Positions 38,604 to 47,303 are shown, counted from the stretch's first letter. The stretch is DNA of 64,000 bases from Halovivax limisalsi (GCF_023093535.1 NZ_CP095757.1:2666001-2730000); one strand, 5' to 3'. Notes: a model not told the origin generated them from the sequence alone. Made by a program: numbers and translations.

Positions 38604-38772
38604 ACGGAGACGCTGCTGTCCGGGTAAAAATCACTTTCCCACCGGCAAAGACCGGGGCGGGACCAGATTGGAGGACGGTGTGACTCGCGAGTTGCGTGGA
38701 TATTGTTCGCTATCGCTCACGCAATCCTCGGTATAGCGAGCGGTGTCGGCCGAACCACGAAATCGTGTTCTA
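38604..38772. other. Intergenic between DUF2071 gene and repeat element
   Basis: No gene is seen. It contains the divergent start region of the DUF2071 gene (GGTAAAAATC near 38627 as a TATA-like element) and ordinary spacer up to the hairpin at 38773. Confidence 0.4.
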
Positions 38773-38923
38773 CCGCCGGAGCGGACGACGTCCGCGGAGG
38801 CGGCCTTTTTCATCGAAGTTTTTCTGGTGAGCGGGTTGCGGGCCTCCGGTCCGCAACTGAATGACGTGGCGGCTCCGCCGCCACGCGGTTCGCCGTAGGC
38901 GAACCCGAACCACAAAAAGTTCG
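38773..38923 (-). repeat. Composite intergenic repeat element, copy A, with tandem hairpins
   Basis: Read on the minus strand it starts with CGAACTTTTT-N5-TCGGGTTCGC (38923-38899), directly after the PAPS-reductase stop. Three perfect hairpins follow: 38905-38887 (8-bp arms, GTA loop), 38885-38865 (9-bp arms) and 38857-38835 (7-bp arms). Then come CGCTCACC (38833-38826) and a 22-base core containing CTTCGATGAAAAAGGCC (38823-38802), followed by a nested stem CCGCC-GCGGACG / CGTCCGC-GGCGG (38803-38773). Copy B at 46306-46407 carries the same two blocks in the same order. Confidence 0.8.
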
Positions 38924-38927
38924 GTTC

Positions 38928-39899
38928 CTACATGTATCCGAGGTCGCGCAGGCGCTCCATCAGGTCCTCCTTGTCTTGGGCGCGGCCGGCGCGTTCGGTC
39001 GTCGACTCGAGATCCTGCAACCAGGCGGGTTCCTCGTCGGCCTTCTCGGTGCTGACTTCGCTGCCGAGCGAGCGGAAGCCGGCGAAGTACTTCGGCGAGA
39101 TGGGGATGTCCTCCTGCGAGACGCCCTCGGGAAGATCGTCGTCGGCCTGCGGGACGTAGCCGTCGTCGGGGTACGCCTCGACGGTATCCGGAACCGCGAA
39201 GTTCCAGAACGCGTCCCAGACCGCGGCCTCGTCGAACTGCAGGATGGGCTGGATGCGATCGTGGGGCGGGTAGATGTCGGGGTCGTGGCGCGGCGAGAAG
39301 AACGTCTCGTCCGCGCGGGCCTCCTGCTCGTCCCAGCGGACGCCGCTGATAACGCCGTCGATGTCGTACTCCTCGAGCGCATCGTTGAGCGCGACCGTCT
39401 TCAGCAGGTGGTTGCCGACGTAGGTGTCGAGCAGGAACGGAAACGTGTCCTCCTCGTACTCGAGGATGTTCCTGACGTGGTGCCGGTTGTGTTCCGAGAG
39501 TTCCGATATCTCGATCTCGTCGCCGGGATCGAGACCGTGCTCGTCGACGTACTCGCCGACGTCATCGTTGCGCGCGTAAATGACCTCGAGGTCCCACTCG
39601 TCGGCCCAGCGGTCGACGAAGTCGTGGATCGCGTCGAAGTGCTGGTAGTGATCGATGAACACGGCCGGGGGCACGTCGAGGTCGAAGCGGTCCGCGACCT
39701 CCTTGATGAAGTAGAGCGTGAGCGTCGAGTCCTTCCCGCCGGTCCACATCACCGCCGGGTTCTCGTAGGTCTCGAGGGCCTCCCTGGTGACCTCGATCGC
39801 CTTCTCCATCTTCGCGGTCAGCGAGGGGTACGTCTCGGGCGATTCGCCGGTGCCGTCCTCGTAATCGACGTCGACTGCGACTGGGTTGTCGGTCGGCAT
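38928..39899 (-). CDS. PAPS-reductase/ATP-sulfurylase-small-subunit family protein
   Basis: The 323-residue protein has the PP-loop MWTGGKDSTL (residues 51-60) that binds ATP or adenylylsulfate, followed by FIKEVADRFDLDVPPAVFID and the family VISGVRWDEQEARADETFFS segment near residue 185. These features group it with CysD and PAPS reductases. No other sulfate-assimilation gene (cysN, cysC or sulfite reductase) is in this window, so its substrate may differ. The catalytic C-terminal ECGLH motif of true PAPS reductases is not present. A T-run and the composite repeat element follow its stop. Confidence 0.85.
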   Translation of the reverse strand: MPTDNPVAVDVDYEDGTGESPETYPSLTAKMEKAIEVTREALETYENPAVMWTGGKDSTLTLYFIKEVADRFDLDVPPAVFIDHYQHFDAIHDFVDRWADEWDLEVIYARNDDVGEYVDEHGLDPGDEIEISELSEHNRHHVRNILEYEEDTFPFLLDTYVGNHLLKTVALNDALEEYDIDGVISGVRWDEQEARADETFFSPRHDPDIYPPHDRIQPILQFDEAAVWDAFWNFAVPDTVEAYPDDGYVPQADDDLPEGVSQEDIPISPKYFAGFRSLGSEVSTEKADEEPAWLQDLESTTERAGRAQDKEDLMERLRDLGYM

Positions 39900-40130
39900 T
39901 GTCTAATGAGATGTAATTATCCGGGGTAAAACCCACGGTTGATCGCGCGGCGGTTCGACCGAACCGTCGCCGGCGAGCGTCACGTACCTTCGCCCGACTC
40001 GCAGCGACTGACACCGATCGAAAATCGGACGCGAACGCCCCGGATCGACCGACACGTCCGCCCCGGAGGGGTCTCGGGCAGTTCGATACCGCTCCAGCGG
40101 CGGAGGCGGGGCGGCGACCGCGTCTGACGC

Positions 40131-40138
40131 AAAGTACT
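40131..40138 (+). promoter_or_regulatory. TATA-like box supporting ATG 40164
   Basis: AAAGTACT lies about 28 bp before ATG 40164 but only ~10 bp before the alternative GTG at 40146, which favours the ATG as the real start of a leaderless transcript. Confidence 0.45.
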
Positions 40139-40163
40139 TGCCGCTGTGAACGAACGTCAAGAT

Positions 40164-40820
40164 ATGCTAGATCCGCTCGTCATCGCACCGGTCCTGATCG
40201 GCCTGCTGCTCCTGGTCGTCGGTGCCACGCTGTCGCGCTACGGGATCGCGCTCATGGGTGCGCTCGTCGGCGCCGGAGCCGGCTACCTCGGCGCACCGAC
40301 CGTCGCGTCGGCCGTCGGCGTCGGCGCGACGGCCGGATCGGCCATCGGCATCGCGATCGGCATCGTCGTCGGCGTCCTCGCCGCCCACATGCTGCTGAAG
40401 TTCGCGGTGGGGATGATCGGCCTCGGCGTCGGCTCCTACTTCGGCCTCACCGTCCTCGCCCCGATCCTCGTCGACGGCGCCTGGTACGTCGAGCTGGGCG
40501 CCGGCCTGGCCATCGGCCTCGCGGTCGCGGCCGCGGGCATGGTCTTTACCCACCTGACGATGATCGGGCTCACGTCGTTCATCGGCGCCGCGCTGGTGAG
40601 TCGCTCGCTCACGTTCGAGAACGTCCAGACGGCCCAGTCGGAACTGACGATCGACCCGCTACTGTTCGAGACGACCGACCCGATCTTCCTCGGGCTGTTC
40701 GCCGTCGGCATCGGGCTCCAGGTCGGCCTGCTGAAGCTCGGCTACGCGAGCTGGCTGGTGCGCCGGTTCCCGGGCGCCGGCATGGGCGACGAGAAACGCG
40801 ACTCGACCGCCCAGGGCTGA
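40164..40820 (+). CDS. DUF4203-like multi-spanning membrane protein
   Basis: The 218-residue protein starts MLDPLVIAPVLIGLLLLVVG and consists mostly of glycine/alanine-rich membrane helices: LMGALVGAGAGYLGAPTVAS, GSAIGIAIGIVVGVLAAHML, VGMIGLGVGSYFGLTVLAP and LTMIGLTSFIGAALVSRSLT. Glycine-zipper-like GxxxG spacing is frequent. The layout resembles DUF4203/TMEM198-type proteins, but no enzymatic motif is visible. GTG 40146 is an alternative start; the promoter spacing favours this one. Confidence 0.7.
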   Translation: MLDPLVIAPVLIGLLLLVVGATLSRYGIALMGALVGAGAGYLGAPTVASAVGVGATAGSAIGIAIGIVVGVLAAHMLLKFAVGMIGLGVGSYFGLTVLAPILVDGAWYVELGAGLAIGLAVAAAGMVFTHLTMIGLTSFIGAALVSRSLTFENVQTAQSELTIDPLLFETTDPIFLGLFAVGIGLQVGLLKLGYASWLVRRFPGAGMGDEKRDSTAQG

Positions 40821-40914
40821 TCCGGAACTGAGCGGGCGACGCTGAGCGGAGCAGTTTCGCCGTCCCGACGACGAAGTCGGTCGGGAGACGCGGTCGGTGT
40901 GGCCGGGATGGGCA

Positions 40915-40926
40915 CGTTTTACTATC
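40915..40926 (+). promoter_or_regulatory. TATA-like box of the aminotransferase gene
   Basis: CGTTTTACTATC is centred about 27 bp before ATG 40948, consistent with a leaderless message. Confidence 0.5.
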
Positions 40927-40947
40927 GCCACGAAGTAGACGCAGGAA

Positions 40948-42165
40948 ATGACCGCCGGCAGCGCCGATCGATTGCGTTCGCTGTTGACGCCGCGGGCGCG
41001 ATCGACACTCGACCGATCGGGCTACGGCTCGTGGCGCGCGATCGCCGGGGCCGACGCCGTCTCGCTCGCCTTCGGCTTCCCGTCGCCGGACGCCCTCCCG
41101 ATCGAGGCGCTGTCGAACTCCGTCGACGCCGTCCTGGACGACGAAGGAGCGCAGGCGCTCCAGTACGGTGGCGGGAGGTACGCGGATCGTCTCGAATCGT
41201 GGGTCGAAACGCGGGCGCTCGATCGCGGCATCGACCTCGACTCGCGATCCGTCCTGCTGACCAACGGGGCGACCCACGCCCTCGACAGCACCTGTCGGGC
41301 CTTCCTCGAACCGGGCGACGTCGTCGCCGTCGAAGCGCCGACGTTCATGGGCTCGATCCGCGTCTTCGAGAACTTCGGCGTCGACGTCGTCGGAACGCCC
41401 CTCGACGAGGCGGGCCTCGACGTCGAGGTGCTGGCCGATCGACTCGACCGCCGTCGCCGCGAGGGCCGACCGATCCCGAAACTCGTGTACACGATTCCGA
41501 ACTTCCAGAATCCGACGGGGGCGACGCTGCCTCGCGACCGGCGCGAACGGCTCCTCGAACTCGCCGAGCGGTTCGACTTCGCGATCGTGGCGGACGACGC
41601 CTACGGCGACCTGCGATACGCGGGCGACCCGGAGCCCCCGCTCGCCGCGCTCGACGACGACGGGCGCGTGATCCGCATCGAGTCGTTCGCGAAGACGATC
41701 GCGCCCGGCGTCAGGCTCGGGTGGCTCGTCGCGCCGACGCCGATCCGCGAGGCGATCGGCGCCCTCGCGGCCGGCGGCACGAACACCTTCACCCGCAGCG
41801 CCGTCGGCCACTACTGCACCGAGGGCGCATTCGACGCGGCCCTGCCCGATCTCCGGGCGGCGTACGCGAAGCGCCGGGATCGGCTGCTCGCCGCGCTCGA
41901 CCGAACCATGCCGCCCGAGGCGACCTGGAGCGAACCGGACGGCGGCTTCTTCGTCTGGCTCGAACTGCCCGCGACCGTCGACACCGGCGACCTGCTCGAC
42001 GCGGCGATCGACGCCGGCGTCACGTTCCTGCCCGGTTCGACGTTCTATCCCGACGACCGCGGCGCGAACGCGCTCAGACTCTCCTTTTCCTACGCCGGTC
42101 CGGCGGAGATCGAGGCCGGAATCGAAGCGCTGGGAGCGGCGATCGACGAATACGAGCGGGCCTGA
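40948..42165 (+). CDS. PLP-dependent class I/II aminotransferase (2-aminoadipate/MocR-like)
   Basis: The 405-residue enzyme carries fold-type I signatures: GFPSPDALP near residue 43, YTIPNFQNPTGATLPRDRR near 181, FAIVADDAYGDLRY with the PLP-contacting Asp and Tyr near 215, and the Schiff-base SFAKTIAPGVRLGW with Lys249. The pattern is that of the LysN/alpha-aminoadipate transaminase-like and valine-pyruvate transaminase-like group. There is no helix-turn-helix at the N-terminus, so it is an enzyme and not a MocR regulator. The amino donor cannot be told. Confidence 0.9.
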   Translation: MTAGSADRLRSLLTPRARSTLDRSGYGSWRAIAGADAVSLAFGFPSPDALPIEALSNSVDAVLDDEGAQALQYGGGRYADRLESWVETRALDRGIDLDSRSVLLTNGATHALDSTCRAFLEPGDVVAVEAPTFMGSIRVFENFGVDVVGTPLDEAGLDVEVLADRLDRRRREGRPIPKLVYTIPNFQNPTGATLPRDRRERLLELAERFDFAIVADDAYGDLRYAGDPEPPLAALDDDGRVIRIESFAKTIAPGVRLGWLVAPTPIREAIGALAAGGTNTFTRSAVGHYCTEGAFDAALPDLRAAYAKRRDRLLAALDRTMPPEATWSEPDGGFFVWLELPATVDTGDLLDAAIDAGVTFLPGSTFYPDDRGANALRLSFSYAGPAEIEAGIEALGAAIDEYERA

Positions 42166-42231
42166 CGTCGTACCCCGCGCTCGGGAGTTCGGTGCGAGAG
42201 CGTACGGAGCGGTCGCCCGGATCCCAGCCGG

Positions 42232-43953
42232 CTACTCGGGGTTCGAATGCGCGACGGCAACCGTCGGGACCGACTCGTGGCGCTCACGGAGCTCGGGCCG
42301 ACTGACCGGAACGTCGACGCCATACGCCGGCTCGGGTTCGGCCTCCGATGCGTCGACGGTCTTGTCCACCCAGTAGACGTCCCACGTACAGGCGTCTCGC
42401 GAGAACGTGACGACGGAGTACCCCCAGTTGGCACAATCGGCGAGCGCGAAGCCCAGCAACCGCTGCAGCGCGGTCGTCGCGATCCGATTCGCCAGTCGCG
42501 CGCCGGCGGCTCCGACTCCGTCCGGCACCGCTCGATCGGCGCCGATCCGCCCGCTTGCGGGCAGGCGTTCGATCGCGTTCCGGACGGTACCCGCGATCCA
42601 GTCGTCGATCGTTTCGCTGAGCGTCACGCTCGTGACGCTCGGCGTCATGAACTCCACCCCGATGACGCCGTCTCCCTCGGCCGCCCGTAGGCGGGTGGCG
42701 AGGGTCATGTGCATGTCGCCGGTGAGCAAGACGACCGACGTCTGGTCCCGGACGGCCGCCATCGTCTCGGCGATCGTCGCCCGCTCGGCCGCGAACCCGT
42801 CCCACGAATCCTTCCACAGACCGCGAACGAGGGGTGCGAACAGCACCGCGTTCGCCCACGCCGTCCACCGCGTCTCGCTCCCGCGAAGCGTGTCGAGAAA
42901 CCACTCGCGCTGGGTTCGGCCGAGGATCGTGTGCGACGAATCCGCCCGATCCCAGGGCAGCACGCGATCCCTGCGCGAGTGGGGCCGGCTCCGAAACAGG
43001 CGTTCGTCTGTCAGCACCAGCGTGAGGAGGTCGCCGAACCGCGTGGCCGTGTACAGTTCGAACGAGTCGTGGAGGTGGTCGGCAGTCGGATCGTACGTGA
43101 TGCGCGCGGGGACGAACTCCCACCACGCCTGGATCCCGGCGCGCGTGAGGTACCGCGTGAACGCCGGCACGTCGCCGCACGGGTGGTCCGGAAACACCGG
43201 CGCGTCGCGCTCGTAGTCCCAGTATCGATCGTTCGCGATCGCGTGGTCGTCCCACGTCTGGATGACGGTGTGGCGTTCGTGCAGGCGTTGCAAGCTGGGT
43301 TCCGCCTTGTAGACCTCGTAGAGGTGGCGGAAGTCGTCCAGACTCATCGGGTGCGTCTCGCCGTCGGGAAGCTCGATTCGACGATCGTCGTACGGCCCAT
43401 CACCGACGTCGTCGTAGACGTAGTCGCCGAGGTGGAGGACGAAGTCGACGTCCGCCGCCGCGAGGTTCGCGATCGCCCCGAAGCGGCCGTGCTGGTAGTG
43501 CTGGCAGTTCAGTACGCCGAACGTGACCGACTCCGGCGACCGATCCTCGCCCGGGAGCGTCCGGCACCGCCCCGTCGGACTCCGGACGCCCCGGTACCCG
43601 AATCGATAGAAGTAGACCGAATCCGGCTCGAGGACGCCGTCGAGGTCGACCCGAAGCGTGTAGTTGTCGGTGGGTTTGACGCCGGGACCCGGGAGGACGG
43701 CTCGGACCACCGGATCGTCGAACGACTCGTCGGTCGCGACCTCGAGGCGCAACGACCGGGTCGGATCGTACCGATCCGGATGGATCCGCGTCCAGAGGAC
43801 GATCCCCGTCGGCGTCGGCCCGCCGCTCGCGACGGACTGGGGAAACACGTCCGCCGGACGGTCGTCCGTCCGATCGAGGTCCGTATCTTCGAGCGAGGTA
43901 CCCACGACGAGGTCCGCCGCGTCGACCGGCTGGCGAATGGTGACCGTCACCAT
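42232..43953 (-). CDS. PhoD-family metallophosphatase, apparently cytoplasmic
   Basis: The 573-residue protein has the PhoD N-terminal barrel (ADVFPQSVASGGPTPTGIVL then WTRIHPD) and the catalytic domain. Metal-site motifs are FGVLNCQHYQHGRFG, DVDFVLHLGDYVYDDVGDG near residue 170 and IQTWDDHAIANDRYWDYERD near 235; VVLLTGDMHMTLATRL near residue 400 supplies a later metal His. The family is normally exported by the Tat pathway, but this protein starts MVTVTIRQPVDAADLVVGTS, with no twin-Arg and no hydrophobic stretch. It hydrolyses phosphate esters by homology. A haloarchaeal IRAVPG-like loop precedes PGPGVKPTDNYTLRVDL. Confidence 0.87.
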   Translation of the reverse strand: MVTVTIRQPVDAADLVVGTSLEDTDLDRTDDRPADVFPQSVASGGPTPTGIVLWTRIHPDRYDPTRSLRLEVATDESFDDPVVRAVLPGPGVKPTDNYTLRVDLDGVLEPDSVYFYRFGYRGVRSPTGRCRTLPGEDRSPESVTFGVLNCQHYQHGRFGAIANLAAADVDFVLHLGDYVYDDVGDGPYDDRRIELPDGETHPMSLDDFRHLYEVYKAEPSLQRLHERHTVIQTWDDHAIANDRYWDYERDAPVFPDHPCGDVPAFTRYLTRAGIQAWWEFVPARITYDPTADHLHDSFELYTATRFGDLLTLVLTDERLFRSRPHSRRDRVLPWDRADSSHTILGRTQREWFLDTLRGSETRWTAWANAVLFAPLVRGLWKDSWDGFAAERATIAETMAAVRDQTSVVLLTGDMHMTLATRLRAAEGDGVIGVEFMTPSVTSVTLSETIDDWIAGTVRNAIERLPASGRIGADRAVPDGVGAAGARLANRIATTALQRLLGFALADCANWGYSVVTFSRDACTWDVYWVDKTVDASEAEPEPAYGVDVPVSRPELRERHESVPTVAVAHSNPE

Positions 43954-44414
43954 CGTGTCACCGGTCCGATGGCTCGAGACCAGCCCCGGGGTTCGTCAGG
44001 GACCGCGAGTGCGACTCGACGGGCATACTGTGTGATTAGTCTTGAGTGGAGTTAACTATTAGCATAGCAAGTCAGCAGTGACAACCGAGCGGCCGCGAAC
44101 GCGGTCGGCGCCGTCGACGACGACGGATCAATGGCATGTGCGACGACGGATCGGCCCTATCGACGAACGCGGACGGTCTGACGGGCTCGGCGACGGGCGA
44201 TTCGGACGGCGTCGAGGCCGGCTGGAGGGCGATCTCGACGCGTTCGCGGGATGACCGACTCGCCGGTCGAGCGCGGCGTTCCGACGCGGTGGTCGTGCTC
44301 CGTTGGGCCACCGTCGTGGGCTCGGCGACCGGCTCCGATCGGCCGTCCGCACGTTCGGTCCGCCGGCTGCGTGCTCCGGTCGGCCGGTCGCACGCTCCCC
44401 TCGCCGTCCGCACG
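43954..44414. other. Intergenic upstream of phoD-like gene
   Basis: This 461-bp gap contains A+T-rich sequence with TAACTATTAGC around 44050-44062, about 100 bp upstream of the phosphatase gene. The segment 44180-44410 is G+C-rich with imperfect direct repeats of CGTCCGCACG. No frame gives a believable protein. Confidence 0.4.
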
Positions 44415-44651
44415 CTACGGTCGACCGGCGCGCGCTTTCACCCGTTCCGAGAACGCCGACAGGTTCATCGCGGCGGCGCAGTGTTCACAGCAGTATCGCA
44501 CGGCGACCGTGTACGTCTCCGACAGCGGATCCGGCGGCGTCACCTCGACCCGGAAGCAGCGGGTTGGCGCCACGGTGCGATCACACCGGTAACAGCCGCG
44601 GTCGCGAGGCGAATCGCCGGCGCCGCCGCTCGATTCGTCGACGCCCCTCAT
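44415..44651 (-). CDS. Small zinc-finger-like protein
   Basis: The 78-residue product starts MRGVDESSGGAGDSPRDRGC. It shows CYRCDR near residue 20 and RYCCEHCAAAMNLSAF near residue 53: two Cys-x-x-Cys-type pairs separated by 30 residues, a treble-clef or zinc-ribbon spacing common in haloarchaeal small proteins. The pattern is close to bacterial FmdB-like or CPxCG-type fingers but not identical. An in-frame GTG at 44684 is an alternative start. It probably binds zinc; partner and function are unknown. Confidence 0.6.
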   Translation of the reverse strand: MRGVDESSGGAGDSPRDRGCYRCDRTVAPTRCFRVEVTPPDPLSETYTVAVRYCCEHCAAAMNLSAFSERVKARAGRP

Positions 44652-44684
44652 CCGAGACCACCACGGTACAGTCTGGCGGACCAC

Positions 44685-45096
44685 CCGGTGGCGCTCGGGC
44701 CCCCATCCCCGAAAACGAAGGTAGACGACGGATAGCGATTCAACTCTCTAAACCGCAGGCGTGCGAGACCTTTTTGTCTCGGAAGTGTGTACGCAATCAT
44801 GGCGACCAAAATCCCTGCTTCGGGATTTGGAAGCCACGTCTCGGGTGTGGCAGCACCCGGGACACTTTCATGCCCGTTCGGACGTGACTTCCGTCCTGAT
44901 TGTTGACGTGATGGGTAATATAGTTACTAATTATTAGTTGGAATCAACGGCTCGAGGTCGGAACAGTGCGCCACCTCGAGGTCCTGGAGCCCGTTCGGCG
45001 AAACCGATCGACCGTTGGTTGCAGGAATCCGCGAGACGGGGCATCCGGGCCTGAACAAGGTCCCATTAGACCGTCGTACAATTCCGAAGATACCGG
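44685..45096. other. Intergenic region with hairpin array C
   Basis: Between the zinc-finger gene and the gene at 45097 lie 412 bp. Stems occur at 44764-44781 (CGAGAC/GTCTCG with T5 in the loop), 44806-44830 (CCA-AATCCC/GGGATTTGG with one bulge), 44842-44859 (CGGGTG/CACCCG) and 44880-44896 (GGACG/CGTCC). An A+T-rich patch follows, with TAATATAG and the odd palindrome ACTAAT-T-ATTAGT at 44926-44938. A possible 35-residue open frame (44799-44906) reads through the stems but is probably not a gene. Confidence 0.55.
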
Positions 45097-45678
45097 TCAG
45101 TCGGTGATGAACTTGTTGTCGCGCCAGTTGACGCCGCCGTTCGACCCCGTCGAGTCGCGCGGGCCCTCGACGACCTCGACGTCGGCAGGCCGCACCTCGC
45201 CGTCGACGATGCGCGTCGCTTCGAGTTCGCCGCCCCTGTCGGAGATGGCCGTCAGCGTCCCCTTCTCGGACTGCTCGGCGATGTCACAGAGGACGAGGAA
45301 CATCTCGTACTGCAGGAGCGAGTTCTGGAGGACGGTCTCGCGATCGCCCTTGAACGCGGCGTACTCGACGAGTTCGGACTCGATCTCCTCTTCCTCCTCG
45401 TCCTCCCAGCGGAAGGCGTTCCGGTGCTCTTCCGGGTCCTCCTCGTAGACGCGGTTTTCCGTGACGCTCGCCTTGAGCTGGGCCGACGGGGTGTACTTGC
45501 TGACGCTCTCGTCCTCGGCGTCGGCCTTGAGGATGAGCGTGTTGTTGCGCCGAGTGAGTTCGACGTCGGCGATGCCGTCGGGAAATGTCGCTTCGTCGAG
45601 ATGATCCTGCAGATCCTCGAGCGGCAGTTCGAGCGTCGAGTGCAATCGATACACGTGACTGGATTCCTCGTTGGACAT
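45097..45678 (-). CDS. Conserved haloarchaeal hypothetical protein (DUF7110-like)
   Basis: The 193-residue acidic protein starts MSNEESSHVYRLHSTLELPL. A small alpha/beta domain covers ~10-75 (DLQDHLDEATFPDGIADVEL, LTRRNNTLILKADAED). A highly charged segment (EEHRNAFRWEDEEEEEIESE) and a helix LVEYAAFKGDRETVLQNSLL then QYEMFLVLCDIAEQ follow. It ends with a flexible tail (NGGVNWRDNKFITD). No catalytic motif is visible. The same pattern is widespread in haloarchaea, but the family name given here is from memory and uncertain. Confidence 0.7.
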   Translation of the reverse strand: MSNEESSHVYRLHSTLELPLEDLQDHLDEATFPDGIADVELTRRNNTLILKADAEDESVSKYTPSAQLKASVTENRVYEEDPEEHRNAFRWEDEEEEEIESELVEYAAFKGDRETVLQNSLLQYEMFLVLCDIAEQSEKGTLTAISDRGGELEATRIVDGEVRPADVEVVEGPRDSTGSNGGVNWRDNKFITD

Positions 45679-45925
45679 GGTGAAGGTAGGTGGACTGGTC
45701 GCTTACCACCACATACGACGGCGGCGCTTAAATGACCTGCTGTTCGATACCCGCCGGTTCCGCGCGTACAAATCAAATCCGCGACGACGGTTGATGAAAC
45801 TGATCCGTCAACGGCTAATTAACCGACGGGCATCGGGCCGACCGCGAGTGTCGGTGATACGAGCGCGCTCTCCAGTCCGCCTCGCAGTCAGTAACCGCGG
45901 TGTACTGGGTTCACGACGGGAGCCT

Positions 45926-46270
45926 TTACTCGCCAGCCAGCGTTTCGGCGAGCTCGCCGCGCTCGTCCAGCTCTTCGAGGATGTCGCTGCCGCCGACGAA
46001 CTCGCCGTCGACGTAGGTCTGGGGAATCGTCTCCCAGCCGCTGTGGGCCGAGAGCGCCTGCCGGAACTCGTCGAGCGAATCCAGGACGTCGACCGTCTCG
46101 AACTCCTCGCGGTGCTGGGAGATGAGCCCGAGCGCCTTGCGGGAGTAGCCACACTGCGGCATCAGTTCGGTTCCCTTCATGAAGAGGACGACCTCGTTCT
46201 CGTCGATCGCGGCGTCGACCCGTTCGGTGACCTCGTCCTGATCGAGTCCCTGGTTCGGCGGGAAGTCCAT
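45926..46270 (-). CDS. Monothiol glutaredoxin-family protein
   Basis: The 114-residue thioredoxin-fold protein starts MDFPPNQGLDQDEVTERVDA. The active-site motif CGYSR near residue 41 has a single Cys, as in monothiol glutaredoxins, preceded by VVLFMKGTELMPQ (the K-G-T/S-x-x-P element). WETIPQTYVDGEFVGGSDIL near residue 78 contains the cis-Pro (T-I-P-Q) and the GG-S/C-D glutathione- or cofactor-contact loop. Such proteins carry or transfer Fe-S clusters. Copy B of the composite repeat element starts 36 bp upstream of its ATG. Confidence 0.9.
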   Translation of the reverse strand: MDFPPNQGLDQDEVTERVDAAIDENEVVLFMKGTELMPQCGYSRKALGLISQHREEFETVDVLDSLDEFRQALSAHSGWETIPQTYVDGEFVGGSDILEELDERGELAETLAGE

Positions 46271-46305
46271 ACCCAATCCATGGGCACTCGGCCGCATATG
46301 CCTTG

Positions 46306-46407
46306 CGAACTTTTTACCCCTCGGGTTCGCTCGCGACACTCGCTCACCCTCGGCGCAAAAACTTCGATGAAAAAGGCCGGTGGCTCGGTCACAGACCTCG
46401 CCACCGG
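46306..46407 (+). repeat. Composite intergenic repeat element, copy B
   Basis: It starts with CGAACTTTTT-N5-TCGGGTTCGC (46306-46330), then CGCTCACC (46341-46348), then the 22-base core containing CTTCGATGAAAAAGGCC (46357-46378), identical to copy A. A stem CCGGTGG/CCACCGG (46377-46407) closes it. Between the blocks it has only 26 bp, compared with 75 bp of hairpin DNA in copy A. It lies upstream of the glutaredoxin gene, pointing away from it. Confidence 0.8.
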
Positions 46408-46414
46408 TGTGGTT

Positions 46415-46491
46415 CGAAAGAGCGCTTGCGCTCTTTCGTCATGCCGAGAGAGCGTAGCTCTCTCGTAGCAAACCGCTCGCTGCGCTCGCGG
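46415..46491. repeat. Tandem perfect hairpins next to copy B
   Basis: Two perfect hairpins follow each other: 46415-46438 (11-bp arms, TT loop, CGAAAGAGCGC type) and 46445-46465 (9-bp arms, GTA loop, CGAGAGAGC type). A weaker palindromic CCGCTCGC...CTCGCGG lies at 46473-46491. They sit about 130-200 bp downstream of the KDPG aldolase stop (minus strand). Confidence 0.8.
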
Positions 46492-46619
46492 ACACTTTCC
46501 GATGGTATGTACACAGTCTCTACGGCAAGGTTCCAACTTGTCGCGAAAAATGTCCGGTTACAAACGCCTCACGATCTTCGCTCCACCGAAGTGCCGTCGA
46601 TAGAACTGAATCGATACCC

Positions 46620-47303
46620 TCACTCCCGACGGGCGTCGGCGACTTCGGCGACGAACTTCTCGGCGCGTCGCTCGATCGCGTCGAAGTCGCCCTCGTCGAT
46701 CGCGTCGCCGTCGACCAGGTCGCTCCCGACGCCGACCGCACATGCGCCCGCGTCGAGGTAGTCGGCGGCGTTCTGTAGCGTGACGCCGCCGGTCGGGACC
46801 AGGTCGACGTCACCGAACGGCCCGGCGAGCGCCGAGAGGTGGCCCGGCCCCACGCTGCTCGCGGGGAAGACCTTCAGTACGTCGGCCCCGGCCTCCAGCG
46901 CGGTCACGGCCTCCGTGGGCGTGAGAACGCCGCACATCGACAGCACGCCCCGACGGTTGCACGTCTCGACCACTGGGGGCGCCGTGTGCGGCGTGACGAC
47001 GAACGACGCCCCGGCGTCGATGACCGCGCTCGCCGTCGCCGGATCGAGGACCGTCCCGGCTCCGATCACCGCGTCGGTCCCGTCGAGTTCGGCTCGCAAC
47101 CGCGAGACCTTCTCGGCCGCGCCCGGATCGTCGGCCGTGATCTCGATCCCCGGGACGCCGCCCCGGACAAGCGCCGCCGCGACCGGAACGATCGACTCCG
47201 GGTCGACCCCGCGGAGGACGGCCACCACGCCGCTTTCGACGATGGTGCCGAGCGGCGGCCGTCGACTGCGCTCCCTCCCGTCGTCCGCGTCGAACGCGCA
47301 CAT
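46620..47303 (-). CDS. 2-dehydro-3-deoxy-6-phosphogluconate aldolase (KDPG aldolase, bacterial type)
   Basis: The 227-residue class I aldolase cleaves KDPG to pyruvate and glyceraldehyde 3-phosphate. Residues 21-31 (IVESGVVAVLR) and Glu54 in GIEITADDP form the active-site start. The Schiff-base Lys144 lies in VLKVFPAS, followed by the phosphate-binding VPTGGVTLQNAADYL near residue 169. The usual bacterial chain is about 210 residues. It starts six bases from the preceding dehydratase stop, so the two form an operon in the Entner-Doudoroff route, with gfcR upstream on the same strand. Confidence 0.93.
   Translation of the reverse strand: MCAFDADDGRERSRRPPLGTIVESGVVAVLRGVDPESIVPVAAALVRGGVPGIEITADDPGAAEKVSRLRAELDGTDAVIGAGTVLDPATASAVIDAGASFVVTPHTAPPVVETCNRRGVLSMCGVLTPTEAVTALEAGADVLKVFPASSVGPGHLSALAGPFGDVDLVPTGGVTLQNAADYLDAGACAVGVGSDLVDGDAIDEGDFDAIERRAEKFVAEVADARRE

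Follow-up and report, generated by a model that had tools for sequence, protein, structure and literature searches.

A dispersed haloarchaeal element at gene boundaries with features of a bidirectional U-tract terminator

Two copies of a composite intergenic element, found in a 64,000-nucleotide stretch of the Halovivax limisalsi genome (the window), belong to a genuine and apparently undescribed family of dispersed elements. The copy number, anatomy, pairing, positional rule and orthologous retention of this family were observed directly. It is moderately probable that the element is a structured, bidirectional U-tract terminator, namely a gene-boundary element at which RNA would end; the principle of U-tract termination is already known. 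Among the options raised in an earlier note on this DNA, a transcription end fits best, as copies begin 0–6 nt after stop codons, contain the sole T5 nearby and are retained at orthologous genes with compensatory changes. Searches of the literature by sequence words and by topic gave no description of the element, and the sequence-word matches were not on archaeal repeats. A known RNA family was ruled out by Rfam searches, which gave no match at the gathering threshold across the window and none for the region of copy A even when E values as high as 1 were allowed.

Anatomy and pairing of the element

The two window copies (Table 1) share a first block, CGAACTTTTT-N5-TCGGGTTCGC, and a 22-base core, AAAAACTTCGATGAAAAAGGCC, both of which match exactly and are separated by 75 bp in copy A and 26 bp in copy B, as the earlier note had reported. 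Its judgement that such a match is unlikely by chance holds, since dinucleotide shuffles with 3 mismatches allowed gave zero matches to block 1 and zero to the core. A coding origin of the blocks was likewise ruled out: the gene model places both sites between genes, and the ORFs that overlap them are mechanical. Block 1 and the core are not independent, as CGAACTTTTT and AAAAACTTCG are imperfectly inverted copies of each other and close a single stem with the intervening DNA inside it. Nor is the CGCTCACC box a fixed module: its distance to the core is 2 bp in copy A but 8 bp in copy B, and other copies merely have the 3′ arm of a variable stem in its place. The tandem hairpins are indeed present, but as parts of the element rather than mere neighbours, including a hairpin-like module at its right end.

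Each copy begins with CGAAC-T(4-6), followed by a sequence-variable GC hairpin, A(4-6)-CTTCGATGAAAA and at least one hairpin, amounting to about 130 bp overall; the motif-to-motif length is about 128 bp, with a 10–90% range of 92–198. The T tract is T4–T6 in every compiled copy, and the GC-rich hairpin region between the T and A tracts varies in both sequence and length among aligned copies. The repeat unit extends past the imperfect inverted repeat (CGAACTTTTT/AAAAACTTCG) to the right end, where 63 of 119 copies have a GCTCRC...CGCGG module downstream of the core, compared to 2 of 118 control stretches. Two main types are distinguished by the post-core sequence, one with GGCC plus a hairpin, to which both window copies belong, and the other with CACTCCTCC...GTCGTCGGCCCG. 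On the outward strand, hairpin 2 is followed by a pair of U-tracts (CUUUUUCAUCGAAGUUUUU) that are spaced about 8 nt from each other and fit within 19 nt. In elements of the GGCC type, such as both window copies, the hairpin on this strand is directly followed by the T tract, and in the CACTCCTCC type a purine-rich spacer lies between the two.

Extra hairpins are located inside the stem in copy A and past the core in copy B. A hairpin module, GGTTCGAAAG(stem)CTTTCGTCAT, occurs as a separate unit in the window (46413–46440) and at four further loci (L007, L008, L013 and L085), adjoining several elements or lying within them, which gives the impression of an exchange of hairpin units among copies. 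In three variant elements (L301, L290 and L298, from genomes G071, G101 and G303), the A tract and CTTCGATGAAAA are apparently separated by an inserted hairpin array (AAAAATCTTC...GCTTAGCTTCGATGAAAAG).

Table 1. Coordinates of the two window copies, their parts and the adjoining genes (window positions).
Feature	Position	Strand	Remarks
Copy A, whole element	38721..38923	-	begins 4 nt past TAG of gene 38928–39899; right end approximate
Copy A, block 1	38899..38923	-	exact match; CGAACTTTTT (5′ arm and sense T5 tract) at 38914–38923
Copy A, three GC hairpins between T and A tracts	38835..38905	-	38887–38905, 38865–38885, 38835–38857
Copy A, core	38802..38823	-	plus strand reads GGCCTTTTTCATCGAAGTTTTT, two T5 tracts met by gene-bound polymerase
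Copy A, hairpin 2	38773..38803	-	immediately past core
CysD/PAPS-reductase-like gene, bounded by copy A	38928..39899	-	NCBIfam matches all below curated cut-offs
Copy B, whole element	46306..46495	+	adjoins promoter of minus-strand glutaredoxin gene; right end approximate
Copy B, block 1	46306..46330	+	exact match; CGAACTTTTT at 46306–46315; CGAAC end 35 nt from glutaredoxin ATG
Copy B, core	46357..46378	+	minus strand has two T5 tracts (46370–46374, 46357–46361) facing aldolase-gene transcription
Copy B, hairpin 2	46377..46407	+	CCGGTGGC...GCCACCGG
Copy B, two more tandem hairpins	46415..46465	+	46415–46438, 46445–46465
Copy B, right-end module	46470..46495	+	AACCGCTCGCTGCGCTCGCGGACAC
Probable TATA element (GCATATG) of glutaredoxin gene	46293..46299	-	abuts element; conserved in relatives; predicted from sequence
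Monothiol glutaredoxin-like gene	45926..46270	-	TIGR00365, 108.1 bits against cut-off of 117.1
KDPG/KHG aldolase gene	46620..47303	-	TIGR01182 above cut-off; transcript would enter copy B

The CGAAC-T segment pairs with A-CTTCG apart from a C.C mismatch that is kept in 100/101 copies, and the T and A tracts are of equal length in 95/101. The pair immediately inside these tracts is T-A in 71 copies, G-C in 14, C-G in 7 and A-T in 5, with all four types present, and is Watson-Crick in 97/101 compared to 55.7 expected. For 18 sequences of one type, 98.8% of the cells are paired, with 44 double-change cells; the covariation score was reached by none of 500 shuffles, and shifting the partner by one column abolished the signal. 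The second type showed similar covariation behaviour. Folding against shuffled sequences gave a mean z of -4.9 for the element and a moderate -2.1 for the post-core stretch, whereas the flanks and distant controls, at about -0.1, showed no folding (control -0.09). Moreover, the forward RNA is less stable than the reverse in 100/101 copies. G-U pairs are rare on both strands (43/2015 and 47/2101), and thus neither single out an RNA strand nor distinguish a fold as RNA from one as DNA, which made G-U asymmetry uninformative as a pointer to the folding RNA strand.

Distribution among genomes and inheritance in Halovivax

The two window copies, which the earlier note had allowed might be the only ones, are accompanied by others, as the genome (a single 3.89 Mb contig) harbours about 20–22 copies including these two. 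It gave 14 core and 14 block 1 matches (at most 3 mismatches) and 20 relaxed-core matches, with 0 for reversed-pattern controls. Of 292 haloarchaeal genomes, 56 contain the exact 16-mer and 55 match the gapped two-arm pattern, according to pattern searches that undercount degenerate copies and gave zero matches for the controls. Copy number ranges from 0 to 27 between genomes. The carriers lie mostly in one family, in addition to two members of another genus with 13–27 copies each, and include Haloterrigena, Natrinema, Natronorubrum, Natronococcus and Natronomonas. Ten plasmid records also carry the element, all ten matches being outside annotated genes; in the six plasmid regions opened, the distances between element and gene are larger, and most of the plasmid copies examined are not tight to genes. 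A viral element was ruled out, as 49 viral contigs carry the 16-mer alone and none has the composite element.

In other genera, some gene-distant copies have a longer downstream part in common. Five such copies (L144, L156, L158, L209 and L216) often show the upstream flank GTGCATAC, or a similar sequence, directly before CGAAC, which suggests either that the repeat unit is longer or that insertion favours such a site. At one locus (L058/L142, G087:C1:373906-374239), three element copies stand in tandem with a 159-bp period, including a repeated gene-fragment-like sequence.

The genes bounded by the element in this genome include those of EF-2, both thermosome subunits, ribosomal protein L16/L10e, TFS, PAN, RadA, a NifU-like protein, glutamate dehydrogenase, HMG-CoA synthase and acyl-CoA dehydrogenase. 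The same genes (EF-2, CysD/PAPS-reductase-like, RadA, TFS and others, among them L16, thermosome, PAN and GDH) retain the element across several Halovivax, and their stems change in a compensatory way. At EF-2, the element stands at exactly +0 in 5/5 Halovivax genomes; in two of the five, the arms CGAAC/CTTCG are replaced by the compensatory CGACC/CGTCG, and the following hairpins are still recognisable. The element follows the CysD-like gene before copy A in 4/4 of the Halovivax species seen, whereas the flanks read from other genera all lack it. The copy B site is occupied in four Halovivax species and empty in a further Halovivax genome (G303), where the aldolase gene directly adjoins the glutaredoxin gene. 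Retention at orthologues together with this empty site indicates that copies have been both inherited and gained or lost. Comparison of this one occupied/empty pair, in which the right boundary is uncertain, gave no clear target-site duplication.

Position relative to genes

For 119 distinct copies with flanks, 110 of which have both neighbours, a codon model trained on the window served to call the genes. A same-strand stop codon lies 0–19 nt before the start of 77/119 copies, and 70/110 copies begin 0–6 nt past the stop, compared to 2.04 expected by random placement in their own gaps. In 96 copies the CGAAC end has a gene boundary within 60 nt; the same is true of the core end in 4. Another 16/119 copies are situated on the promoter side, 35–52 nt upstream of an ATG and again with the CGAAC end facing the gene; the gap before the ATG looks like it holds the TATA element of a leaderless promoter. 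An outer gene was called for 13 of the promoter-side copies, and in 9 of these its reading direction leads into the element. The remaining 26/119 copies are not tight against genes.

The T5 of the element is the sole one nearby in 75/77 stop-adjacent copies, a further sense T5 within 150 nt being present in only 2. The element is not the general terminator of this genome, an option ruled out because most genes lack it and just 3/51 window genes have a T5 within 30 nt past the stop. The stop codons adjoining the element are TAA in 46 copies, TAG in 27 and TGA in 4 (of 77), against a background of 166 TGA among 375 genes (Fisher 2e-12). Expression level alone would not explain this near-absence of TGA with both TAG and TAA enriched.

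Proposed boundary function and its alternatives

The simplest single function is that of a boundary, because the CGAAC end points towards the gene both past stop codons and beside promoters. A polymerase leaving the gene would reach CGAAC-T5 within a few nucleotides of the stop, a U-tract of the kind at which the archaeal polymerase and aCPSF1/FttA end transcripts, whereas a gene-bound polymerase coming from outside would read the opposite strand, where hairpin 2 precedes two U-tracts. The element would thus end the mRNA of its own gene and keep out foreign or antisense transcription, and the promoter-side copies would use the second face, shielding the promoter from read-through of the upstream gene. 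Transcription in Haloferax was terminated in vivo by a T stretch at an efficiency of 95% (PMC7237163); aCPSF1 binds U-tracts, best with two U4-tracts, and termination efficiency tracks the number of U-tracts (PMC8716108). From the sequences we infer that RNA ends at the element with a role for aCPSF1, and that the fold may act either as RNA or as DNA. One difficulty is that an RNA ending at the first T5 would lack the 3′ arm, so the pairing needs another reason. Candidates are read-through RNA, reverse (outward) transcripts, DNA structure and hairpin-templated repair, the last of which could keep the arms complementary, yet should also remove the fixed C.C mismatch.

The element resembles archaeal U-tract terminators such as those of Haloferax volcanii and Methanococcus maripaludis (T stretch; aCPSF1/FttA-dependent) in having 4–6 consecutive T directly past the gene. 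The sequence mark of this class is a run of at least 4–5 sense T soon after the stop; the element has T4–T6 in every compiled copy, and 70/110 copies begin 0–6 nt past the stop. Its outward strand, with two U4+ tracts in 19 nt, has the arrangement best bound by aCPSF1 (PMC8716108). However, those terminators are loose T stretches, whereas here the T tract sits in a conserved, base-paired element of fixed anatomy that recurs genome-wide. With bacterial-type bidirectional intrinsic terminators, the element shares a GC hairpin flanked by T and A tracts and common to neighbouring genes, in addition to compensatory stem evolution. It differs from them in that the sense order is reversed, the T tract being 5′ and the A tract 3′ of the hairpin, so that the sense strand lacks a hairpin followed by T; this succession is present on the outward strand only, through hairpin 2, directly in the GGCC type and across a purine-rich spacer in the CACTCCTCC type. 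It also differs in its conserved CGAAC and CTTCGATGAAAA.

A rather unlikely alternative is a non-autonomous, MITE- or REP-like mobile element that favours sites just after TAA/TAG stops or beside promoters, with any effect on transcription being incidental. Similar to REP/BIME and MITE repeats, the element is short, palindromic, extragenic and dispersed, often at 3′ ends, and its near-identical blocks recur at unrelated genes. The variable copy number, the imperfect terminal inverted repeats (past which the unit continues), the scarcity of adjoining TGA stops, the empty copy B site, the gene-distant copies in other genera and on plasmids and the longer common downstream part in some genera all favour mobility. 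Unlike such repeats, the element strictly abuts stop codons or promoters and is retained at orthologous genes, and the one occupied/empty pair showed no clear duplication. Moreover, the absence of composite copies from the 49 viral contigs and the strict CGAAC-towards-gene rule (96 vs 4) argue against it, as do compensatory stem changes at fixed orthologous sites, unlike a recent inert insertion. Nevertheless, a mobile origin of the family is likely and does not compete with a boundary function; of the mobile option in the earlier note, the dispersed origin stands in view of the patchy copy number, the empty site and the plasmid copies off genes, but it is compatible with the transcription-end reading.

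It is improbable that the element is a 3′-UTR stem, transcribed whole, that shields the mRNA against 3′ exonucleases or determines its half-life, with termination further downstream. A covarying stem that begins at the stop codon and the typical abundance of the bounded housekeeping genes would suit this role, but a second sense T5 rarely follows (2/77), the 16 promoter-side copies would be unexplained, G-U pairs are rare and the forward RNA is almost always the less stable one. It is very unlikely that the element is recognised as DNA, as a cruciform or a protein-binding site, and serves the nucleoid, replication or recombination, the first two being options of the earlier note: the near-pure Watson-Crick pairing would be usable as DNA and the invariant C.C mismatch points to sequence-specific recognition, yet the copies have no strand bias (8 forward, 10 reverse) and their position tracks stop codons and promoters, not chromosome coordinates.

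For the preferred terminator reading, the family would have spread by some copying process and then been retained at useful sites, many of them at housekeeping genes that are typically highly expressed. We tentatively suggest that it may be a mobile-derived, two-faced fence, kept mainly at the edges of such genes and blocking both read-through out and antisense or upstream transcription in, as a recurrent insulator-like boundary. If true, this would provide a defined and testable archaeal terminator or insulator, archaeal terminators so far being mostly loose T stretches, and a case of a dispersed repeat adopted as a regulatory boundary; it could also supply strong, orientation-tested terminators for haloarchaeal genetics.

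In addition, two inverted pairs of elements face inwards at distances of 0.7–1 kb (L001/L012, G000:C1:510254-511257; L010/L011, 120312-121076). One pair is located between the convergent radA and NifU-like genes, and the other between two divergent genes, around a short ORF of low GC3 that looks like a lipoprotein (TVMAGC motif).
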